Assembly (NCBI GenBank): GCA_022072255.1
Contig: JAJVHZ010000014.1
Location: 1 to 64,000, forward strand
DNA length: 64,000 nt
From: Gammaproteobacteria bacterium
GTDB taxonomy: Bacteria > Pseudomonadota > Gammaproteobacteria > JAJPIJ01
Direction: 5' to 3'
Shown here: in pieces, positions 50,627 through 60,594 of the stretch
How positions within the stretch are numbered: position 1 is the first letter of the stretch
Layout: every line of letters starts with the position of its first letter
Position numbers and translations under genes: made by a program
The notes under the pieces: generated by a model
The model's database searches: none
The model's input: the letters and a program-made list of their open reading frames with translations, nothing else
Told to the model about the DNA's origin: nothing

Positions 50627-52294
50627 ATGTTGGATACAGAGTTCTGCCGGCAGATCCTCAAGCTGCCGGAACCATGGGTGGTCGAGGACGTGCGTGTGGA
50701 TAAACCGTCCAATCGCATCGACGTCCGGATCGGCATGCCCCGACGCAAGCGCACCTTCTTCAGCCGCCAAGCAACCTGTCCGCGCTGCCATCGCGCCCTG
50801 CCCGCGACCGGCGGTGGTCAGCGTGTGGTCAGGCACCTGAACATCGGTGAGATGCGCACTTACCTGACCGTACCGGCCGCACCGGCGGAGGGAAGCGCGA
50901 ACGACTGCGGATGCCGGCGGGTGTGGAGCAATCCCGGCTCGCGCTTCACCCAGGAGATGGAGCGCCAGGTCGTCGAAGGCCTGCATCTGCTGGGTTCGAT
51001 CGACGCCGTCGCCAAGCTGTTTCTCGTCAACGCCGTGGACGTCCGCGAGATCAACGCGCAGCACCGCATCATCGATTCCGACAAGCCTGCGCCCGCGCCG
51101 ACCCACACCATCGCCTACGCCCAGGCGCACTTCAACGACGGCGGACTGGAGGTGGCCTACATCGACGAGGAGGAATACCACACCGCGCCGGCCACCCCGC
51201 GACCGGCGCCGCCGAGGGAAAACCACGAGGCCGTGCCGCCGGAATCCGATCCGGTCTGGCAGCGTCTCATCGATCATTCCGCGCACGCCAGCCTGCAGTC
51301 ATTGGGCCTGAAGATGCTGCTCGAGCAGATCCGGCTCAGCGTCACCGGCAATCGCTCCGAGAACGCGCGCCTGGCGGCCGCCCGAATCCTGCGGCAGTAC
51401 TTCGTCAAGCACTGGCGGCGCAGCCAGATGGAACTCGCGTCGCTGCTCAGCGAGGCGCGTGCGAATCCGGGTACGCAGCCGGCCCAGGCGCCGGCCAAGC
51501 CGCTCATCGAGCCGCCGCCGGAATCCGACCCAGGCTGGCAGTACCTCATCGAGGGGCGCATACCCGTTCACGCCGAGGCCATAGGCCTGAAGATGCTGAT
51601 CGAACGCCTGCGACTGACGCTGGGCTCGCGGCCCTCGGCCGAAAGCCGAATTGCCGGCGCCCGCATCCTGCGCGAGTTCTTCGTCAAGCACTGCGCCCGT
51701 CATCAGAGCGAGCTGGCGCAGGTGGTCGCGGCTGGGAAGGCGCACATGCAGCGCACGGCGGCCTCGGCACGCCCGCAGACGGCGGCGGCCATCGAAGTGC
51801 CGCCCGAGTCGGCGCGCTGCTGGCAGTTGCTGATCGACGGTCAACTGGAGATCCAGAGCTCCGCCGTGGGCCTGACCATGCTGCTGGAGCGCATCCGGCT
51901 GACGATAGGTCGCGTACCCTCCCCGGCCGCACGCCTCGCCGCGGCCCGGGTAATGCGCCAGTATTTCGAAAAGTACCGCAGCCGCCACGAGACCGAGCTG
52001 AAGCTGCTGATCGCCGAGGATGCGCTCTACCGTGCGGACGCAAGCGGCCAGGTGGTGGAGTTCGTCGAGGTACCGCCGGAGAACCATCCGAGCTGGGACA
52101 AGCTGATACGCGGCGAGCTGCAGCTCCGTACCGAGGCGCTGGGCCTGAAAATGCTGCTCGAGCGGGTGCGCCTGTCGCTGGGTTCCGAGCCCACCGAAGC
52201 GCTGCGGCTCGCCGCCGCGCGCGTGCTGCGGCAGTATTTCATCAAGCATCGCAGCCGCCACCGCGCCGAACTCGAGCAGCTCAAGGCGGCCTAG
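50627..52294 (+). CDS. ISL3-type zinc-finger-like N-terminus followed by four ~90-aa helical repeats
   Basis: CPRCHRALPATGGGQRVVRHLNIGEMRTYLTV...CGC...GSIDAVAKLFLVNAVDVREIN, then four copies of PPEs..W..LI.g.....ala(i/v)GLkMLlERiRLtlg..p....RlaaAriLRqyFvKh.rrh..EL. Confidence 0.7.
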   Translation: MLDTEFCRQILKLPEPWVVEDVRVDKPSNRIDVRIGMPRRKRTFFSRQATCPRCHRALPATGGGQRVVRHLNIGEMRTYLTVPAAPAEGSANDCGCRRVWSNPGSRFTQEMERQVVEGLHLLGSIDAVAKLFLVNAVDVREINAQHRIIDSDKPAPAPTHTIAYAQAHFNDGGLEVAYIDEEEYHTAPATPRPAPPRENHEAVPPESDPVWQRLIDHSAHASLQSLGLKMLLEQIRLSVTGNRSENARLAAARILRQYFVKHWRRSQMELASLLSEARANPGTQPAQAPAKPLIEPPPESDPGWQYLIEGRIPVHAEAIGLKMLIERLRLTLGSRPSAESRIAGARILREFFVKHCARHQSELAQVVAAGKAHMQRTAASARPQTAAAIEVPPESARCWQLLIDGQLEIQSSAVGLTMLLERIRLTIGRVPSPAARLAAARVMRQYFEKYRSRHETELKLLIAEDALYRADASGQVVEFVEVPPENHPSWDKLIRGELQLRTEALGLKMLLERVRLSLGSEPTEALRLAAARVLRQYFIKHRSRHRAELEQLKAA

Positions 52295-52308
52295 GGAAAG
52301 GAGGCCTC

Positions 52309-53346
52309 ATGTTCGGGATTTCCAGCCCGCAGTCTGCGAACGCATCCCTCGGCAGCGTCAGCGGCCGCCTGGTGACGGTCACGGAGGCCGCAGCGGCCAT
52401 CAGACAGGGGCGGGTGCTCTGGATCGGCGGCGACGAGACGCTGCTGCGTCAGCTTCCCACCGGCCAGTGGATAGGCGGATCGATCCCCTACTTCGTCGCG
52501 CAGAACGGCGGGGAGACGACGCGCGAACGCGTGTTCTGCTCGGAATTGCCGGCCAATATCGCCACCGGCATGGACATCCGCTTCTACGACCTGGACACCA
52601 TCGGCCGTATAGCCGTCGAGGCGCCCGAAAACGGCTTCAGCATCCTGTTGATTCCGGCCACCAGCGAGCTGCATCTGAGCTACGCGCGAAACGCGCCCGG
52701 CTACGATGAGATGTTCCTGAAGCCGATCGCGGGCTGGGTCACGGGTGTGCATCTGGACGACCTCGGCCGGTCGCACCCGATCGTGTACAACGGCAAGACC
52801 GGCGAGGGCTCGCGCGAACGCGGCCTGGCAATGCACGTCGCGCTGCGTCCGGAGAAGATCGCCCAGATCGGCATCGTGAATACCTTCAGGCAGGGCAACG
52901 GCGACACGCTGGTGTTTCCCGAAACCGGCTTCGCCGCCAGCCGTTGCGAGGTCAACGGCGTGGAGCGCAATTTCGCCGAGTATGTGCGCGAACTGAAGAT
53001 CGATCAGCGCCTGCCGCTGGTGGCGGATTATTCGGGCACGATGATCAACGTCGGGCTGCAGCGCGTCGACGAGCGCGGCGACGAGGTGTCGTTCTACGCG
53101 CCGGTCTTCAAGGGCATCCGTTACCGGTTTGCCGCGCCGGTGGAGAATTACGTCGAGGCATTCCAGTCGGCGATACCGAAGCTGGATCAGCCGGTCGTGT
53201 TCAGCTGCAACTGCGTCCTGAACTACCTGTACTCGGAGCTGGAAGGCAAGCACACTGCGCACATGACCGGCCCGATGACCTTCGGCGAGATCGCCTATCA
53301 GCTCCTGAACCAGACCATGGTCTACCTGACCGTCGAGGATGCCTGA
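52309..53346 (+). CDS. Conserved-looking hypothetical protein, family not recognised
   Basis: 346 aa; 15 bp after the repeat gene, with RBS-like aaaggagg. Confidence 0.8.
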   Translation: MFGISSPQSANASLGSVSGRLVTVTEAAAAIRQGRVLWIGGDETLLRQLPTGQWIGGSIPYFVAQNGGETTRERVFCSELPANIATGMDIRFYDLDTIGRIAVEAPENGFSILLIPATSELHLSYARNAPGYDEMFLKPIAGWVTGVHLDDLGRSHPIVYNGKTGEGSRERGLAMHVALRPEKIAQIGIVNTFRQGNGDTLVFPETGFAASRCEVNGVERNFAEYVRELKIDQRLPLVADYSGTMINVGLQRVDERGDEVSFYAPVFKGIRYRFAAPVENYVEAFQSAIPKLDQPVVFSCNCVLNYLYSELEGKHTAHMTGPMTFGEIAYQLLNQTMVYLTVEDA

Positions 53347-53348
53347 GC

Positions 53349-54284
53349 GTGAGCGCCAGCCCCGAGAACATAGGCGCGTCCCCTTTTGATGCCGGCCCGC
53401 TCCCGCCCCGTCCCATATCCATATCGATGATCGGCGTCAGTGCCGACGACCGACGCCAGCTCCTGGACGCGTTCGAGGAGATCCCTGACGACCGCATCCT
53501 CTACCGGCCGGTCGCGCTGCATCAGCGCCCGGATATCCTGCTCGTAAATGCCGACGACGCCCGCTCGCTGGCCACCTGGGTGCGTTACCGAAATTACGCC
53601 CGCCAATTGGGCGGGGAACCGCCGAGCGTCGTCATCTCCGGCGACCGGACGTTCGACACGGCACATTATCAGCTCGCCAGCCCGCTGGACGGCCGCGCGG
53701 CGCTGCGGCTTTTCAATCGCATCGTCAGCGAACGCCTCACGGTGAAGGAGATCGAGGCTCCGCAACGCCCGCCGCTGTCGGTGGTGTACTCACCGCCGCT
53801 CGATGAGACCGCGCTGCCGCCGCGTCTGCTCGACATGAATCCGTCGGCCGACGAATCTCTGCCGCTCGCCTCGGTCGCCAGCGACATGGTCGCGCCCGAC
53901 GTCGATCTGAACGTAGCGGCGGTGCGCGCCCTGGTCATCGACGACAGCCTGCCGGTTCGCATCCAGATGAAGCAGGCGCTGCACCCACTGGGCTGGCAGG
54001 TGGACTTTGCCGAGAGCGGCGAGCAGGCCCTGCCGCTCCTGGACAACAACGACTACAACATCATCTTCGTCGACACCATCATGCCCAACATGGACGGTTA
54101 CGAAGTCTGCCGCCACGCGAAGGCGGGGCGCGCCAGGGACGTCCCCGTGGTGATGCTGACCAGCGCCTCCAGCCCCGCCGATCGGGTGCGGGGGAAGCTC
54201 GCGGGTTGCGATACCTACCTTATCAAGCCCGTCACTCCGCAGGTCCTGCGCCAGCTGCTGGAGCAGTATCTCTCGGTGCGCTAG
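53349..54284 (+). CDS. Response regulator: degenerate N-terminal receiver-like region plus canonical C-terminal receiver
   Basis: C-terminus VRALVIDDSLPVRIQMKQAL...IIFVDTIMPNMDGYEVC...VVMLTSASS...YLIKPVT; N-terminal DILLVNADD...VVISGDR...LASPLDG. Confidence 0.85.
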   Translation: MSASPENIGASPFDAGPLPPRPISISMIGVSADDRRQLLDAFEEIPDDRILYRPVALHQRPDILLVNADDARSLATWVRYRNYARQLGGEPPSVVISGDRTFDTAHYQLASPLDGRAALRLFNRIVSERLTVKEIEAPQRPPLSVVYSPPLDETALPPRLLDMNPSADESLPLASVASDMVAPDVDLNVAAVRALVIDDSLPVRIQMKQALHPLGWQVDFAESGEQALPLLDNNDYNIIFVDTIMPNMDGYEVCRHAKAGRARDVPVVMLTSASSPADRVRGKLAGCDTYLIKPVTPQVLRQLLEQYLSVR

Positions 54285-54383
54285 CCGAACTGGCGCGATG
54301 GCAGCGGGACGCATCGTGACGTTCGCGCATCATCTCCACCGTTCGAGCCACTGCGCAGCCATCGCGGCGTCCGGGATCTCCGC

Positions 54384-54872
54384 ATGAGCACCGCCGACGC
54401 CGGATTGCTGCTGGCGGCAGAGGTTCAGGGTCCCGCACGCCGGGAACGCCGGTTCGGTTTTCGCATCGGCGGCACGGGGTTCCTCGTGCCGGCCGGCGTG
54501 GCGAGCGAGATCGTGCAGAACCCCGTCGTCCATCGCATCCCCTGGCAGACTTCGCACATGCGGGGACTCGTCGGTCACCGCGGCAACGTCGTGCCCGTGT
54601 TCGAACTGTCAGCACTGTTTCACACGGTGGTGCGCAGCGAACCCGGCGCCTACCTGCTGATCCTCGACGGCGGTGAACGTGCGGGCGGGGTCTTCGTCGA
54701 TACCTTGCCGACCATGCTCGCCTGCGAGGCCGACGAGCATCCCGATTTCAGCGGTTTGCCCTCTCCGCTGTCCGAAACCGTGCAGGGCACCCGCGTCGCC
54801 GCGGGGGAGCGCTGGTTCGAACTGGACCACATGGCGTTGTTCGCGGCGCTCGCCCGCATGCACGCGGCCTGA
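54384..54872 (+). CDS. CheW/PilI-like coupling protein
   Basis: FGFRIGGTGFLVPAGVASEIVQNPVVHRIPWQTSHMRGLVGHRGNVVPVFEL. Confidence 0.88.
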   Translation: MSTADAGLLLAAEVQGPARRERRFGFRIGGTGFLVPAGVASEIVQNPVVHRIPWQTSHMRGLVGHRGNVVPVFELSALFHTVVRSEPGAYLLILDGGERAGGVFVDTLPTMLACEADEHPDFSGLPSPLSETVQGTRVAAGERWFELDHMALFAALARMHAA

Positions 54873-54935
54873 TACCGGAATCAAAGACCCGCTGCGAGCG
54901 GCACGGCAAGAATCCCGCGAGAGGCTGCGACAGCA

Positions 54936-56330
54936 ATGAAGTCCGCAAGATGGTCGGTCCGCGCTCGCCTCATTGCCCTGGTGCTGGCAGTGCACGCCTT
55001 CGGTCTGCTGCTGGGGGCCACCCTGATGCACCGCACGGGCTCCGCGCGGGCTCACCTCGCCGATGCCCTGCCGATGACCGCCGTCATCGCGCTGGGCGTC
55101 ATTTTGGTCGGTGTCATAGCGGTGCTTGCGATCCGCAGGTGGCTCGCGCCACTGGATCGCCTGCGGATCACCCTTCAACGCGTGAACGACGGCGATATCG
55201 ACGTCCGCGCCGCGGTCGACACCGACGATGAGTTCGAGGCGCTCGGGGCCGGTATCGACAACGTCGTCGCGCACCGCTGCAGCACGCTGCAAATCGAGGG
55301 TGAAAGCTATCGGCTCCACCAGTCCGTCGGCGCGATAATGCAGGCGGTTACGCGCATTGCCGGGCGCGATCTCAGCGCCCACGCACCGGTGCGCGACGAT
55401 GCCACGGGAGCGATCGCCGAGGCGCTGAACACCATGATCGGCGACACGGCGGCGGTCCTTCGCAGCGTGACGGAAGTCGCCACCAACGTTGCCGAGACCA
55501 CCAACCTCGTCAAGTCCCAATCCGATCACATCGTCATGCTGGCCCGCGCCGAACGCGAGAACCTCGAGGAGTGCGTCAATGATCTCGAGGTGGCGGCCGA
55601 CGCCCACAGCCACATCGCGCGCATGGCGATCGCCTGCGCGGAGGCGGGAGAAAAGGCCCTGGTAGCCACGCGGATTGCGCGCGTGTCGGTGCAGAACAAC
55701 GTATCTGGGTTCCAATCCATACGCACGACGCTGGCGGACACCGAACGGCGCGTGCGGCTGCTGCTGGACCGATGCCAGGAGATATCCGGCGCGGTCAACC
55801 TCATCAGCCATCTCACCGAGCGCACCCACGTACTCGCCCTGAACGCGAGCATGCACGCCTCGGCGGTGGGCGACGCCGGTCGCGGCTTCAGCGCGGTGGC
55901 CGACGAGGTGCAGCGCCTGGCCGAGAACACCCGCGAAATGGCCTCCCAGATCAGCGATATCGTGCAAAGCGTGCAGGCAGACACCGCCGACACGATGCAT
56001 TCGCTGCAGATGCTGAGCGAGCACGTGCAGAGCGGGAACGAACTGGTCGATCGCAGCGGCCGCGACATGCAGGCCACCGAGGAGGCGGCCGGCAACCTCG
56101 TGGATCTGATCCGCAAGATCGCGGCGGCCGCGGCCACACAGAGACAGATCAGCGCAACCATACGCCAGCGCACGACGGCAATCATCGAGAACGTGAGCCG
56201 CACCGGCGCGTATCTGCTCGGGCAGGCCGAGCACACCGACAATCTCGCCGAGCAGGCGATGGCGCTGGTGGAATCGGTGAGCGCCTATCGGCTGCCGGAG
56301 GAGGACGATGAAACGTCTCCACGGGCATGA
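54936..56330 (+). CDS. PilJ-like methyl-accepting chemotaxis protein without a periplasmic domain
   Basis: Two TM helices close together; HAMP-like segments; hairpin tip LTERTHVLALNASMHASAVGDAGRGFSAVADEVQRLAENT. Confidence 0.88.
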   Translation: MKSARWSVRARLIALVLAVHAFGLLLGATLMHRTGSARAHLADALPMTAVIALGVILVGVIAVLAIRRWLAPLDRLRITLQRVNDGDIDVRAAVDTDDEFEALGAGIDNVVAHRCSTLQIEGESYRLHQSVGAIMQAVTRIAGRDLSAHAPVRDDATGAIAEALNTMIGDTAAVLRSVTEVATNVAETTNLVKSQSDHIVMLARAERENLEECVNDLEVAADAHSHIARMAIACAEAGEKALVATRIARVSVQNNVSGFQSIRTTLADTERRVRLLLDRCQEISGAVNLISHLTERTHVLALNASMHASAVGDAGRGFSAVADEVQRLAENTREMASQISDIVQSVQADTADTMHSLQMLSEHVQSGNELVDRSGRDMQATEEAAGNLVDLIRKIAAAAATQRQISATIRQRTTAIIENVSRTGAYLLGQAEHTDNLAEQAMALVESVSAYRLPEEDDETSPRA

Positions 56331-56399
56331 GCCGCGCACCGATCGCGCCACCGCGATGACCTGCCGCGCCAGGCCACGACGGACGACTTCCCAGGGCAT

Positions 56400-59174
56400 A
56401 TGAACCATCCCAGCCGCGAGGTCGTGCGCATGCTGCAGGAGGAACTGCAGGACGTCTCCGCCAGCCTGCTGTCCTCGCCGCTCGGGCCCGGGGATACGCC
56501 GGCGCTGGCGCTGCGTGATCTGTCCCGCCGCCTGCACCGCCTCGCCGGGATGGCGCGTGCCCTCGGCCTGGCCGGTCTGCAACGCGCGATCGAGCATGCG
56601 CAGATCAACGTGCGGGCATGGCTGAGCCAGCATCCCAACGCGGCGCAGCCGCAACTGTGGCGGCTGGTGGTGGAATGGCCTTTGGAGGTCAACCGCTACC
56701 TCGACCGGCTCGAATCGACGGATTCAATCGCAGCGCTCTGCAATTTTCTCGGCAACCGGGACTGGCTTCGGCCGCTGCCGCCCGAGGAGTTCGAGACCCT
56801 CGCGACGGAGCATTGCCCCGAGCCTCCGACACCGTCCCCGACGAGCGCCGAGGACTCGCTGTCGCTGAAGATCCCCGAAGACGTCTCCCCCGCGATGGTG
56901 GTCGAGCTGCTGCAGGAAGTTCCGGACCTCACCGAACGGCTGGCCCGCCTGGTGGATGCATGGAGCGAAGACGGCAAGACCACTCACAGCCTGATGGAGG
57001 CGCAGCGGGTAGCGCACGCGATCAAGGGCGCGGCCAACACGGTCGGCATCCGCGGCATCGCAAGATTCACGCACGTGCTGGAGGACGTGCTCGCCCACGA
57101 GAATCACTCGCCGACACAATCCCGACCCCTGCGTTCCCTGGTTGCGCGCGCTGTGGCCTGCCTGCACCAGATGAGCGACACGCTGCTCGGTCGGAGTTCC
57201 ACGCCGGACGATGCGGCCGCAATACTTGCGGCCATGCAGGTGCACCTCGACGGCATGGCTGCCGGCGGCCAGGCGGCGGAGGCCGCCCGTGCGGAGGGCG
57301 CCGTGGCCGGTGGGGCGGACGCCATCGCCGAGGGCGATGACGGCCTCGCTGCCGTCTCGGCGCTGCCGCCGGCCGGCATCAGGATCAATCCGGCGCTCAT
57401 CGACGAGGTATTCCGGATCGCCGGGGAATGCGCGGTGTCCGTGAATCACATGCGGGAGGAACTGCACCGCACCCGCCAGATCGTGCAGGAACTCGCGCGT
57501 CGCGTGATGGCGGCGCGGGAGCCGGTGCAGGCCCTGCTCGCGATGCGCCTCCCCGGCGGGTCGGATCCCGGTGGCGCGGCCACGGCGTTGGGGCCGGTCA
57601 GGCAGCAGGACCTGCGTGAAGCCATCGCCGATGCGCTGATCCTCGGCGAGGATCTGCAGTCTCAGGTCCGTCTCATCGAAGAGCAGCTCAATGGCCACGA
57701 ACGGCTGAACGAGGAACTGCGCGGCCGGGTACGGCAATGCCGCATGATGCCGGCCGGGGAGATCGTCCCCAGGCTCAGGCGCGCGGTGGCGCAGGCCGCG
57801 CGCCTGGCGGGCAAGGAGACCGAGCTCGCCGTCGCCGGCGGCCATACCCTGGTCGATACCTACATACTCAACGCCGTGGTGGATCCGCTCATGCACGCCC
57901 TGCGCAACGCGGTCGATCACGGCATCGAGCCGGGCGCCGAGAGGCTGCGTCAGGGGAAGTCCGCGATCGGCAGGGTGAACCTGACCTTCCAGCACGAGGC
58001 CGACGAGATACTGATCCGCTGCCAGGACGACGGGCGCGGGCTCGACGCCGCGCTCATACGTCAGCGTGCCATTGCGCGCGGGCTCATCGCCCCGGGCGAG
58101 GAGCCCGACCAGGAACAACTGGCCCGGCTGGTCTTCCGTCCCGGTTTCTCCACGCGCGAACACGCCTCGCAGACCTCCGGCCGGGGCATCGGCATGTCTG
58201 CCATCGCCGCGCAGATCGCGCGCCTCAAGGGGTCGGTGGACATACGTTCGCAACCGGGGACAGGCTGCACGATCGAGATCCGGGTACCGGAATCGATGCT
58301 GTCGGTCGGTGTCGTGCTGGTGGCCGTCAACAACTATACCGTGGCGATCTCCAATCGAGGCCTGCTGCGGGTCAGCATGATCGAGGCCGATCAGGTCCGC
58401 ACTGAGGACGAGGACCGTTACGCTGAACTGGACGGCGATCGCGTGCCGGTGCAGACGCTGAACTCGCTGCTGTTCGCCAATGCCGCCCCGCTCGCCGCGA
58501 CGCCGCATACGCAGTTGCCGGCGCTGCTCATGCGCGCAGGCGAGACCCGCCGCCTGGTCGTACTCGAGAGCATCCTCGGAACGCGCACGATGAGTCTGAC
58601 CGGCCCGGGCCTCTACCTGCGCACGATGCCGGGCCTGCTGGGCACCACGACCATGGCCGACGGAATGATCGTGCCGGTTCTGGATCTCACCGAGTTGCTC
58701 GCGCAGCCCGCCGGGTGGACGGCGAATGCGCCGCGCGAGCCGGAAGGCGCGACCCAGAAGGACAGCCGCCCCCTGGCCCTCGCCGTGGACGATTCGATCA
58801 GCATCCTCCGCGAGCTGACCCAGACCCTGGGCGCCCACGGGCTACGGACGCATACCCTGCCGGATGGCGCGCGCGCCTGGGAGTATCTGCAATCGGTCAA
58901 ACCGAGCCTGGTCATCGTCGACGCCAACATACCGGGCATGAGCGGCGCGGAGCTGTGTTCCAGGATCCGCACCGACGATCGCCTGCGTCCCGTGCCGGTC
59001 ATCATGATCAGTGCCAATGCGGACGCCTACCGTGCCCGCGCCCAGCAGGCTGGCGCCACGTGGCTGCTGCCCAAGACCGGATTGCGGCCGCTGCTCGAGG
59101 AGGTCCTGCAGCGGATTCTCGTTCCCGCCGGATCCGAGGCCGGCAAGCAGGACAACTCCTCGGTGCCGGCCTGA
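56400..59174 (+). CDS. CheA/ChpA-like hybrid histidine kinase (Hpt-like, Hpt, HATPase, CheW, REC)
   Basis: AHAIKGAANTVGI; HALRNAVDHGIE; DDGRGLD; SGRGIGMSAIAAQI; LAVDDSISILRELTQ...LVIVDANIPGMSG. Confidence 0.93.
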   Translation: MNHPSREVVRMLQEELQDVSASLLSSPLGPGDTPALALRDLSRRLHRLAGMARALGLAGLQRAIEHAQINVRAWLSQHPNAAQPQLWRLVVEWPLEVNRYLDRLESTDSIAALCNFLGNRDWLRPLPPEEFETLATEHCPEPPTPSPTSAEDSLSLKIPEDVSPAMVVELLQEVPDLTERLARLVDAWSEDGKTTHSLMEAQRVAHAIKGAANTVGIRGIARFTHVLEDVLAHENHSPTQSRPLRSLVARAVACLHQMSDTLLGRSSTPDDAAAILAAMQVHLDGMAAGGQAAEAARAEGAVAGGADAIAEGDDGLAAVSALPPAGIRINPALIDEVFRIAGECAVSVNHMREELHRTRQIVQELARRVMAAREPVQALLAMRLPGGSDPGGAATALGPVRQQDLREAIADALILGEDLQSQVRLIEEQLNGHERLNEELRGRVRQCRMMPAGEIVPRLRRAVAQAARLAGKETELAVAGGHTLVDTYILNAVVDPLMHALRNAVDHGIEPGAERLRQGKSAIGRVNLTFQHEADEILIRCQDDGRGLDAALIRQRAIARGLIAPGEEPDQEQLARLVFRPGFSTREHASQTSGRGIGMSAIAAQIARLKGSVDIRSQPGTGCTIEIRVPESMLSVGVVLVAVNNYTVAISNRGLLRVSMIEADQVRTEDEDRYAELDGDRVPVQTLNSLLFANAAPLAATPHTQLPALLMRAGETRRLVVLESILGTRTMSLTGPGLYLRTMPGLLGTTTMADGMIVPVLDLTELLAQPAGWTANAPREPEGATQKDSRPLALAVDDSISILRELTQTLGAHGLRTHTLPDGARAWEYLQSVKPSLVIVDANIPGMSGAELCSRIRTDDRLRPVPVIMISANADAYRARAQQAGATWLLPKTGLRPLLEEVLQRILVPAGSEAGKQDNSSVPA

Positions 59175-59259
59175 CCCGAGGGTATAGCCAGCCTTGTTTA
59201 TCTGTCATCTCATTCCGCAGATAATCTGCGGCTAGCTTCCGCTCAAGAAGGCGCCCGCT

Positions 59260-60594
59260 GTGCTCAAGGTTCTGGTCATTGATGACTCGCGCGTCGTGCG
59301 CAAGATGATGGTGGAGTCACTGCGCGCGGAATTCGCGGGCGCAGCCGTCGACGAGTACGATCCGTGCATCCAGGGATTCCCGGGTTCGGAATTCGGATGG
59401 TCGTATTACGACGTGGTGTTCCTCGATTACAACCTCGGGCTGGCCGGCGAGGACGGCCTCACCTGGCTGCGCAAGTTCCAGAATTTCGCCGACATGCCGC
59501 CGGTCATCATACTGACCGACGAGGAGCGCATCAGCGTCATCGTCAAGGCGATCAAGGCCGGCGCCAAGGACTACGTCCTGAAACGCGATCTCAAGAATGC
59601 GGACCTGGCCAACATCATCTACCGCGCGCTCGGTATCGAGGGAGACGAGGCCGAGGCCAACACGCTCAACGAGATCCCCGCCCTGGAGGTGCCCACCGCG
59701 GCCACCGAGCAGACGCACGGGCACGAACAGAACGCCCCGGCCACGCAGCGGCCGGAATCCACCGTGACGCGCCGTAACGGCGCGCCACAGGACACCATAC
59801 GCGTACACATCCCCGGCTACCGCATCATCGCCCCGATTGCGCAGGGCGGCATGACCACGATCTTCCTCGCCCAGAGGGTCGAGGACGACCTGGAGATCGT
59901 CCTGAAACTGATGTTCACGCGCGATCAGCCCGACACGCCGCTGCTGCGCTATTTCATGCAGGAGTACGCGCTCATCTCCAAGCTGAACCACCCCCACATC
60001 ATCAAGATCTTCGAGCGCGCGTTCGCGAAGGACTTCGCCTATATCGCCATGGAGTATCTGCCCGCCGGCAACCTGGTCGCACGCATCCGCAAGGGCCTGA
60101 TGCCGGACAAGGCGCTGCAGTACATACGCCAGATCGCCGAGGCGCTCGGGGCGGTACACAACCTGAGCATCGTGCACCGGGACCTGAAGCCATCGAACAT
60201 ACTGTTCCGCCAGAACGACACCGTGGCGATCACGGACTTCGGCGTGGCGCATTTCGCGGCCGGCATGAGCGGCATCGACGAGACGCAGGTGCTGATCGGC
60301 AGCCCGTCCTACATGAGCCCGGAGCAGTGCAAGCGTCGTCCCGTTGATCCGCGCAGCGATCTATACAGTCTCGGCGTGCTCATGTTCGAGATGCTGACGG
60401 GGGGTAAGCCGTACACGGGGCGCGGCATTCCGGAGATCATCGATGCCCACATACGGGCCCCGGTACCGCGTCTTCCCGACGAACTGCGGCAGTATCAACC
60501 GCTCATAGACGGCCTGCTGGCAAAGGATCCGGCCGAGCGGTTTCAGAGCGCCGGCGAGTTCATCGCCGGCCTGGAGTGGATCTGCCAGGGCTGA
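59260..60594 (+). CDS. Receiver domain fused to a Hanks-type Ser/Thr protein kinase
   Basis: VLVIDDSRVVRKMM...VVFLDYNLG...YVLKRD; kinase APIAQGGMTTIFLAQ, VLKLM, IVHRDLKPSNIL, ITDFGVA, GSPSYMSPEQ. Confidence 0.93.
   Translation: MLKVLVIDDSRVVRKMMVESLRAEFAGAAVDEYDPCIQGFPGSEFGWSYYDVVFLDYNLGLAGEDGLTWLRKFQNFADMPPVIILTDEERISVIVKAIKAGAKDYVLKRDLKNADLANIIYRALGIEGDEAEANTLNEIPALEVPTAATEQTHGHEQNAPATQRPESTVTRRNGAPQDTIRVHIPGYRIIAPIAQGGMTTIFLAQRVEDDLEIVLKLMFTRDQPDTPLLRYFMQEYALISKLNHPHIIKIFERAFAKDFAYIAMEYLPAGNLVARIRKGLMPDKALQYIRQIAEALGAVHNLSIVHRDLKPSNILFRQNDTVAITDFGVAHFAAGMSGIDETQVLIGSPSYMSPEQCKRRPVDPRSDLYSLGVLMFEMLTGGKPYTGRGIPEIIDAHIRAPVPRLPDELRQYQPLIDGLLAKDPAERFQSAGEFIAGLEWICQG

Follow-up and report, generated by a model that had tools for sequence, protein, structure and literature searches.

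Introduction

FIST proteins of the NosP type are separate sensors that control adjacently encoded histidine kinases without a sensor domain of their own (PMC12570481). The FIST protein VpsV, with VpsS, has likewise been proposed as a separate sensor for an adjacent histidine kinase (PMC4398556). CheA proteins that combine several Hpt domains with a receiver (REC) domain are typical of the type IV pilus (Tfp) and alternative cellular function (ACF) chemosensory classes (PMC10782961). Here we describe a seven-gene chemosensory locus at positions 50627-60594 of a 64,000-nucleotide stretch of gammaproteobacterial DNA (the window; contig JAJVHZ010000014.1, G000:C11:1-64000 in our numbering, from an assembly of 4.27 Mb that is 95.5% complete). 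The locus opens with a helical-repeat protein and a DUF6976 protein and closes with a receiver-Ser/Thr kinase (REC-STK). Its predicted function, which we regard as evenly poised between right and wrong, is that of a chemosensory pathway derived from Chp (Tfp/ACF-like), whose input has been replaced and whose output is a Ser/Thr kinase.

Each of the closest described systems shares part of this arrangement. Like Pil-Chp of the Tfp class, the locus has a CheW, a methyl-accepting chemotaxis protein (MCP) with a HAMP domain and a CheA with Hpt and C-terminal REC domains, and its operon includes neither CheB nor CheR. Unlike Pil-Chp, it has an MCP without the periplasmic domain that PilJ possesses, its CheA lies in a separate clade, it adds the repeat/DUF6976 module and the REC-STK, and no pilus genes stand alongside. 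It resembles the NosP-NosK/NahK systems in that a FIST-like cytosolic protein is encoded beside a histidine-kinase system with no sensor domain of its own; in contrast to NosP, DUF6976 is a separate Pfam family of only remote similarity, is paired with a repeat protein and would signal to an array with CheA, not to one histidine kinase. With other REC-Hanks kinase proteins, gene 7 shares a receiver joined to a PknB-like kinase domain. It differs in ending a chemosensory operon and in belonging to a che-linked clade, whereas relatives lie beside RND (resistance-nodulation-division) efflux genes or, with a degenerate REC, beside canonical Chp genes.

A conserved seven-gene locus

The seven consecutive same-strand genes of the original prediction, with the domains it assigned, are all present in the open reading frame (ORF) listing and by Pfam, in the order Zn_ribbon_ISL3 protein, DUF6976, response regulator, CheW, HAMP-MCP, CheA (Hpt, HATPase, CheW, REC) and REC-Pkinase (Table 1). 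This block is a conserved unit, because an identical gene order is found in the isolate Methylohalomonas lacus, in three other gammaproteobacterial lineages and in a congener of the window's organism. Survey of the best 80 DUF6976 loci, taken at one genome per species from a larger number, gave the full row of repeat protein, DUF6976, double-REC protein, usually a single REC, CheW, MCP, CheA and REC-STK in M. lacus, L021, L023 and L024. The window and its congener L019, which comes from a metagenome-assembled genome named 'Gammaproteobacteria bacterium', have this row except for the extra single-REC gene; the window's relatives are gammaproteobacteria. An assembly artefact or a chance adjacency is ruled out by the equal gene order in other genera, one of them represented by an isolate.

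When a sample of 369 genomes of the class was searched for DUF6976 and the REC-STK, DUF6976 was present in six, and three of these (the window's genome, the congener and M. lacus) carry the full locus. Among the best 80 loci, the nearest DUF6976 relative beyond the full loci is that of L020, which is solitary, and most DUF6976-repeat pairs have no chemosensory neighbor; the module is therefore independent of che genes. The original prediction had allowed that the REC-STK and the first two genes might not be conserved with the che genes. In orthologous loci they are conserved with them, although the module is separable, and the proposed coupling of a receiver-Ser/Thr kinase to a Chp-like chemosensory operon is supported. 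L035 (Contendobacter) has a related cluster of DUF6976 and Chp genes; its MCP does have a periplasmic domain, and one further gene looks like that of a periplasmic-binding protein. No REC-STK lies beside these DUF6976 and che genes, and a search of the L035 genome gave none of full length. All-against-all clustering of neighbors was swamped by spurious antisense ORFs and yielded no further universal neighbor of DUF6976.

A role in anti-phage defense was considered and set aside, as the PADLOC matches were limited to the generic kinase domain (PD-T4-6, mad6) and genes 1 and 2 gave none.

Genes 1 and 2: a repeat protein paired with DUF6976

Gene 2, a 346-residue protein that had been described as unrecognised, belongs to the named family DUF6976 and scores 460 bits against its cut-off of 27. 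Its model (pLDDT 92, pTM 0.89, with 60 homologs in the alignment) retrieved only two PDB chains at E<=0.001 in Foldseek, both of FBXO22 (E 7.5e-5 and 2.3e-4; best probability 1.00). FBXO22 is a eukaryotic FIST protein. The TM-score is about 0.4, a remote similarity, and the FIST_C match within gene 2 is sub-threshold (E 0.0046, 17.5 bits against a curated cut-off of 28.5). Comparison with 13 bona fide FIST proteins by hhalign aligned the same C-terminal part collinearly, including the Cys and GEI...NQT motifs, at a low probability of 6.6% (E 0.0055). Conserved positions of DUF6976 include H122, which is nearly invariant (97%), and Cys 300/302. Taken with the models, these profile comparisons suggest that DUF6976 is FIST-like and that the relation is a remote one. 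A sequence search of the PDB with genes 1 and 2 gave nothing useful.

Gene order and fusions are the basis for pairing DUF6976 with the helical repeat of gene 1. A copy of this repeat lies directly upstream of DUF6976, or is fused to it, in 78 of the best 80 loci, across phyla and with seven fusions; the count is slightly circular, the repeat profile having been seeded with a few of the same loci, but most matches were not seeds. One further copy was found elsewhere among 5866 ORFs, and four other apparently distant copies were due to over-extended ORF starts. The five full che loci have four to five repeats (the window has four), as against one, or rarely two, elsewhere. A stand-alone repeat protein of 74-88 residues occurs in spirochaetes, in some genomes of Chloroflexi type and in a record labelled Heimdallarchaeota; one such copy, when scanned, had no match in Pfam or NCBIfam. 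In most betaproteobacteria a single copy follows an ISL3-like N-terminal domain. DUF6976 itself was found in several bacterial phyla and in at least one record labelled archaeal. A natural repeat-DUF6976 fusion was modelled as a four-helix repeat domain plus a FIST-like part, and all of its top four Foldseek matches were FBXO22 entries. We claim no interface between the two parts because the model's pTM was 0.78 and the linker was weak, though each part was confident.

The zinc finger from which gene 1 had taken its name proved real but incidental. The ISL3-type Zn ribbon cysteines are absent from three of four distant orthologs (L021, L023 and L024), and zinc binding is therefore not a core feature. 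Against the NCBIfam ISL3 transposase model gene 1 scores 26.8 bits (cut-off 180), and only the N-terminal Zn ribbon/helix-turn-helix region matches. Function as a transposase remnant is ruled out, since this N-terminal region alone matches and its cysteines are gone in orthologs. Alignment with orthologs favors the ATG at 50627 as the start of gene 1.

The first two genes had been thought to have no obvious role in chemotaxis. They are most likely a sensory pair, composed of a conserved repeat domain and a FIST-like DUF6976. Alternatively, the two proteins might be targets of the pathway, for example substrates of the STK or an enzyme-scaffold complex, and so belong to its output. We regard this as quite doubtful: while the occurrence of the module without che genes in most genomes argues for a function of its own, and DUF6976 has no known ligand site, the FIST proteins studied so far are sensors (PMC12570481, PMC4398556), and the MCP sensor is missing exactly in the loci with a multi-repeat protein. 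Furthermore, histidine kinases, an MCP and a CheW flank the module in other phyla. A spirochaete row (L046:6389-12890) comprises PAS-LuxR, 4HB-MCP, CheW, the stand-alone repeat, DUF6976 and a REC-PAS-HisKA_2 kinase, and two-component genes adjoin the module in L044, L081 and L084. In the Chloroflexi-type loci L044, L070, L074, L095 and L098, a gene of about 600 codons near DUF6976 presumably encodes a tungsten aldehyde:ferredoxin oxidoreductase, and some of these neighborhoods also have what we take to be MoaD/MoaA-like genes.

The chemosensory core and its relation to Pil-Chp

Gene 3 had been called a double-receiver protein. Its C-terminal receiver is recognised by Pfam; the N-terminal half is only a degenerate receiver-like domain, which is nevertheless kept in orthologs. 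Its likely start is the GTG at 53349, just past the DUF6976 stop codon. By simple hydropathy, the MCPs of all five full loci have two transmembrane segments with almost no loop between them and no periplasmic sensor domain, in contrast to the normal periplasmic domains of the MCPs of L035 and L151.

The CheA of gene 6, at 924 residues, is shorter than its orthologs of about 1400. The Hpt histidine and the N, G1 and G2 boxes are present in the CheAs compared, save that G1 was unmatched by regular expression in L022. A C-terminal REC was found in gene 6, and only one Hpt with a recognisable H-box. In a tree of 12 CheA rows, including two canonical ChpA proteins (from this genome and from G213), the CheAs of the full loci and of L035, L151, L152 and L153 separate from canonical ChpA at 100/100; the wider class is not settled by so few rows. 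The window's branch is long, and the DUF6976-linked CheAs are not resolved as a single clade.

That the locus is a Pil-Chp system of the usual kind, which controls type IV pili and in which the accessory genes are there by chance, seems to us very improbable. The MCP, CheW and CheA are of Pil/Chp type, and T2SSE-family ATPases, as in type IV pili, are encoded elsewhere in the genome. Set against this, the genome has its own canonical PilG-PilH-PilI-PilJ-ChpA locus (L018:2808-13171, on G000:C13), the CheAs stand apart in the tree and every full locus has kept the extra genes. Together with the MCP that lacks a periplasmic domain, these observations show that the set is not the canonical Pil/Chp locus, an identity that would have refuted the original prediction. 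At the canonical locus in L018, a Ser/Thr kinase with a degenerate N-terminal receiver is encoded divergently from PilG, and L164 and L166 have a similar arrangement.

About 8 kb downstream of the seven genes, on the same contig, a CheR and a CheV-like CheW-REC protein are encoded side by side (G000:C11:68515-70413; L017:8516-10414, - strand). CheB was not found in the 95.5% complete assembly. CheW domains occur at five places in the assembly, only two of which are CheAs (gene 6 and the canonical ChpA on C13). Flagellin genes are also present on C13, yet both CheAs are Chp-like, and no flagellar-class CheA was seen in the assembly.

The receiver-Ser/Thr kinase

The kinase motifs of gene 7 (Gly loop, Lys, HRD, DFG) are intact in every aligned row, and the window, L021 and L022 have the complete set of receiver residues (DD, phospho-Asp, Thr/Ser and Lys). 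In L023 and L024 the phospho-Asp and other receiver residues are lost; phosphotransfer to the STK is therefore not essential in every member. The link from His-Asp phosphorelay to Hanks-type phosphorylation that had been proposed is thus plausible in this genome, where the receiver appears intact, and is not universal.

These residues also bear on a different view of the kinase, in which the REC-STK is not an output of the phosphorelay. Its receiver would be a pseudo-receiver used for docking, and the kinase would phosphorylate chemosensory components or the repeat protein and so tune the array from the side. The degenerate receivers of L023 and L024, those of the kinases that adjoin canonical Pil-Chp in this genome, L164 and L166, and a kinase core intact in all aligned rows are in keeping with this view. 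However, the window, L021, L022, L151, L152 and L153 seem to have intact receiver residues, which would be unlikely if these were unused, and L023 and L024 are a sister pair, such that their degeneration can be a single loss. We therefore consider this alternative unlikely, if still worth weighing.

Rather than being special to this locus, the REC-STK belongs to a common subfamily, found in 100 of the 369 class genomes at E<=1e-60 and also beside RND efflux genes. Relatives fetched at full length include those at the che loci L151, L152 and L153, and ones with degenerate receivers by PilG in L018, L164 and L166. In a tree of 25 rows, the six REC-STKs of DUF6976-che loci form a clade (97/93) within a nine-row clade (99/98), and all nine of its members are at che loci. 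The link between this kinase clade and che genes therefore holds also without DUF6976, which was not found in the L152 and L153 genomes.

The loci of L152 and L153, from the same family as the window's organism, are dense in che genes, with two REC-STKs, a PAS hybrid kinase, CheR, CheB and two CheAs. In L154, L155 and L158 a REC-STK lies directly downstream of an RND efflux gene (AcrB-type by Pfam in L154; of equal gene length and position in L155 and L158), and control of efflux by a receiver-Ser/Thr kinase is possible there.

Table 1. Coordinates of the locus and of features within its genes
Feature	Position in window	Strand	Basis
Gene 1, ISL3-transposase-N-terminus-like domain (Zn ribbon and helix-turn-helix-like) followed by four helical repeats of about 75 residues	50627..52294	+	PF14690 E 3.5e-6, PF13542 weak
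Repeat copy 1	51233..51457	+	repeat profile
Repeat copy 2	51509..51733	+	repeat profile
Repeat copy 3	51785..52015	+	repeat profile
Repeat copy 4	52058..52291	+	repeat profile
Gene 2, DUF6976 protein, distant FIST-like fold, proposed cytosolic sensor	52309..53346	+	PF22396 E 3.4e-138
Gene 3, degenerate receiver-like domain and canonical receiver	53349..54284	+	PF00072 E 6.5e-22 at 197-306 only
Gene 4, CheW	54384..54872	+	PF01584 E 5.9e-13
Gene 5, MCP with two closely spaced transmembrane segments, HAMP and signalling domain	54936..56330	+	PF00015 E 3e-26, HAMP
Gene 6, CheA (Hpt, HATPase, CheW, REC)	56400..59174	+	Pfam
Gene 7, receiver-Hanks Ser/Thr kinase	59260..60594	+	PF00072 E 4.5e-14, PF00069 E 1.2e-44
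Predicted phospho-Asp (D56) codon of the gene 7 receiver; Gly in L023 and L024	59425..59427	+	alignment

Proposed pathway and its significance

Beyond the observed gene content, domains, conservation and catalytic residues, the pathway that we infer has interactions, phosphotransfers, a direction from input to output, a ligand and targets. The precedent of NosP and VpsV and the spirochaete row of MCP, CheW, repeat, DUF6976 and histidine kinase lead us to propose that DUF6976 provides the input, the repeat protein serves as a multivalent adaptor, CheA relays the signal and both gene 3 and the REC-STK are outputs. DUF6976 would bind a small ligand in the cytosol. The gene-1 protein would act as a scaffold, holding several DUF6976 proteins on its four to five helical repeats and bringing them to the receptor-CheW-CheA array. 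Lacking a periplasmic domain, the MCP would take its input from the cytosolic complex, in a manner similar to the control that NosP exerts on a histidine kinase without a sensor. CheA may then autophosphorylate and act as phosphodonor to both the gene-3 protein and the receiver of the STK; once phosphorylated, the latter would switch the Hanks kinase, leading to Ser/Thr phosphorylation of targets.

The low TM-score and hhalign probability of the DUF6976-FIST comparison, the missing chemosensory neighbors at most repeat-DUF6976 pairs, the L035 cluster with no REC-STK and the receiver residues lost in L023 and L024 all weigh against this pathway. It is also possible, though we advance the idea tentatively and expect it may prove wrong, that the locus represents a separate chemosensory class, in which a multivalent scaffold of FIST-like sensors drives the receptor array from the cytosolic side and phosphorelay from CheA directly switches a Hanks-type Ser/Thr kinase.

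In the open-access literature searched, no paper names DUF6976, and no CheA-Hanks-kinase locus is described by title or abstract; subscription journals were outside the search, so the lack of an earlier description is not proved. The proposed pathway offers a first functional hypothesis for DUF6976 and its repeat partner domain. Being conserved and compact, and present in the cultured M. lacus, the locus is a place to ask whether a CheA array directly controls a Hanks-type kinase, and it may reveal the way in which bacteria connect two of their major phosphorylation systems.

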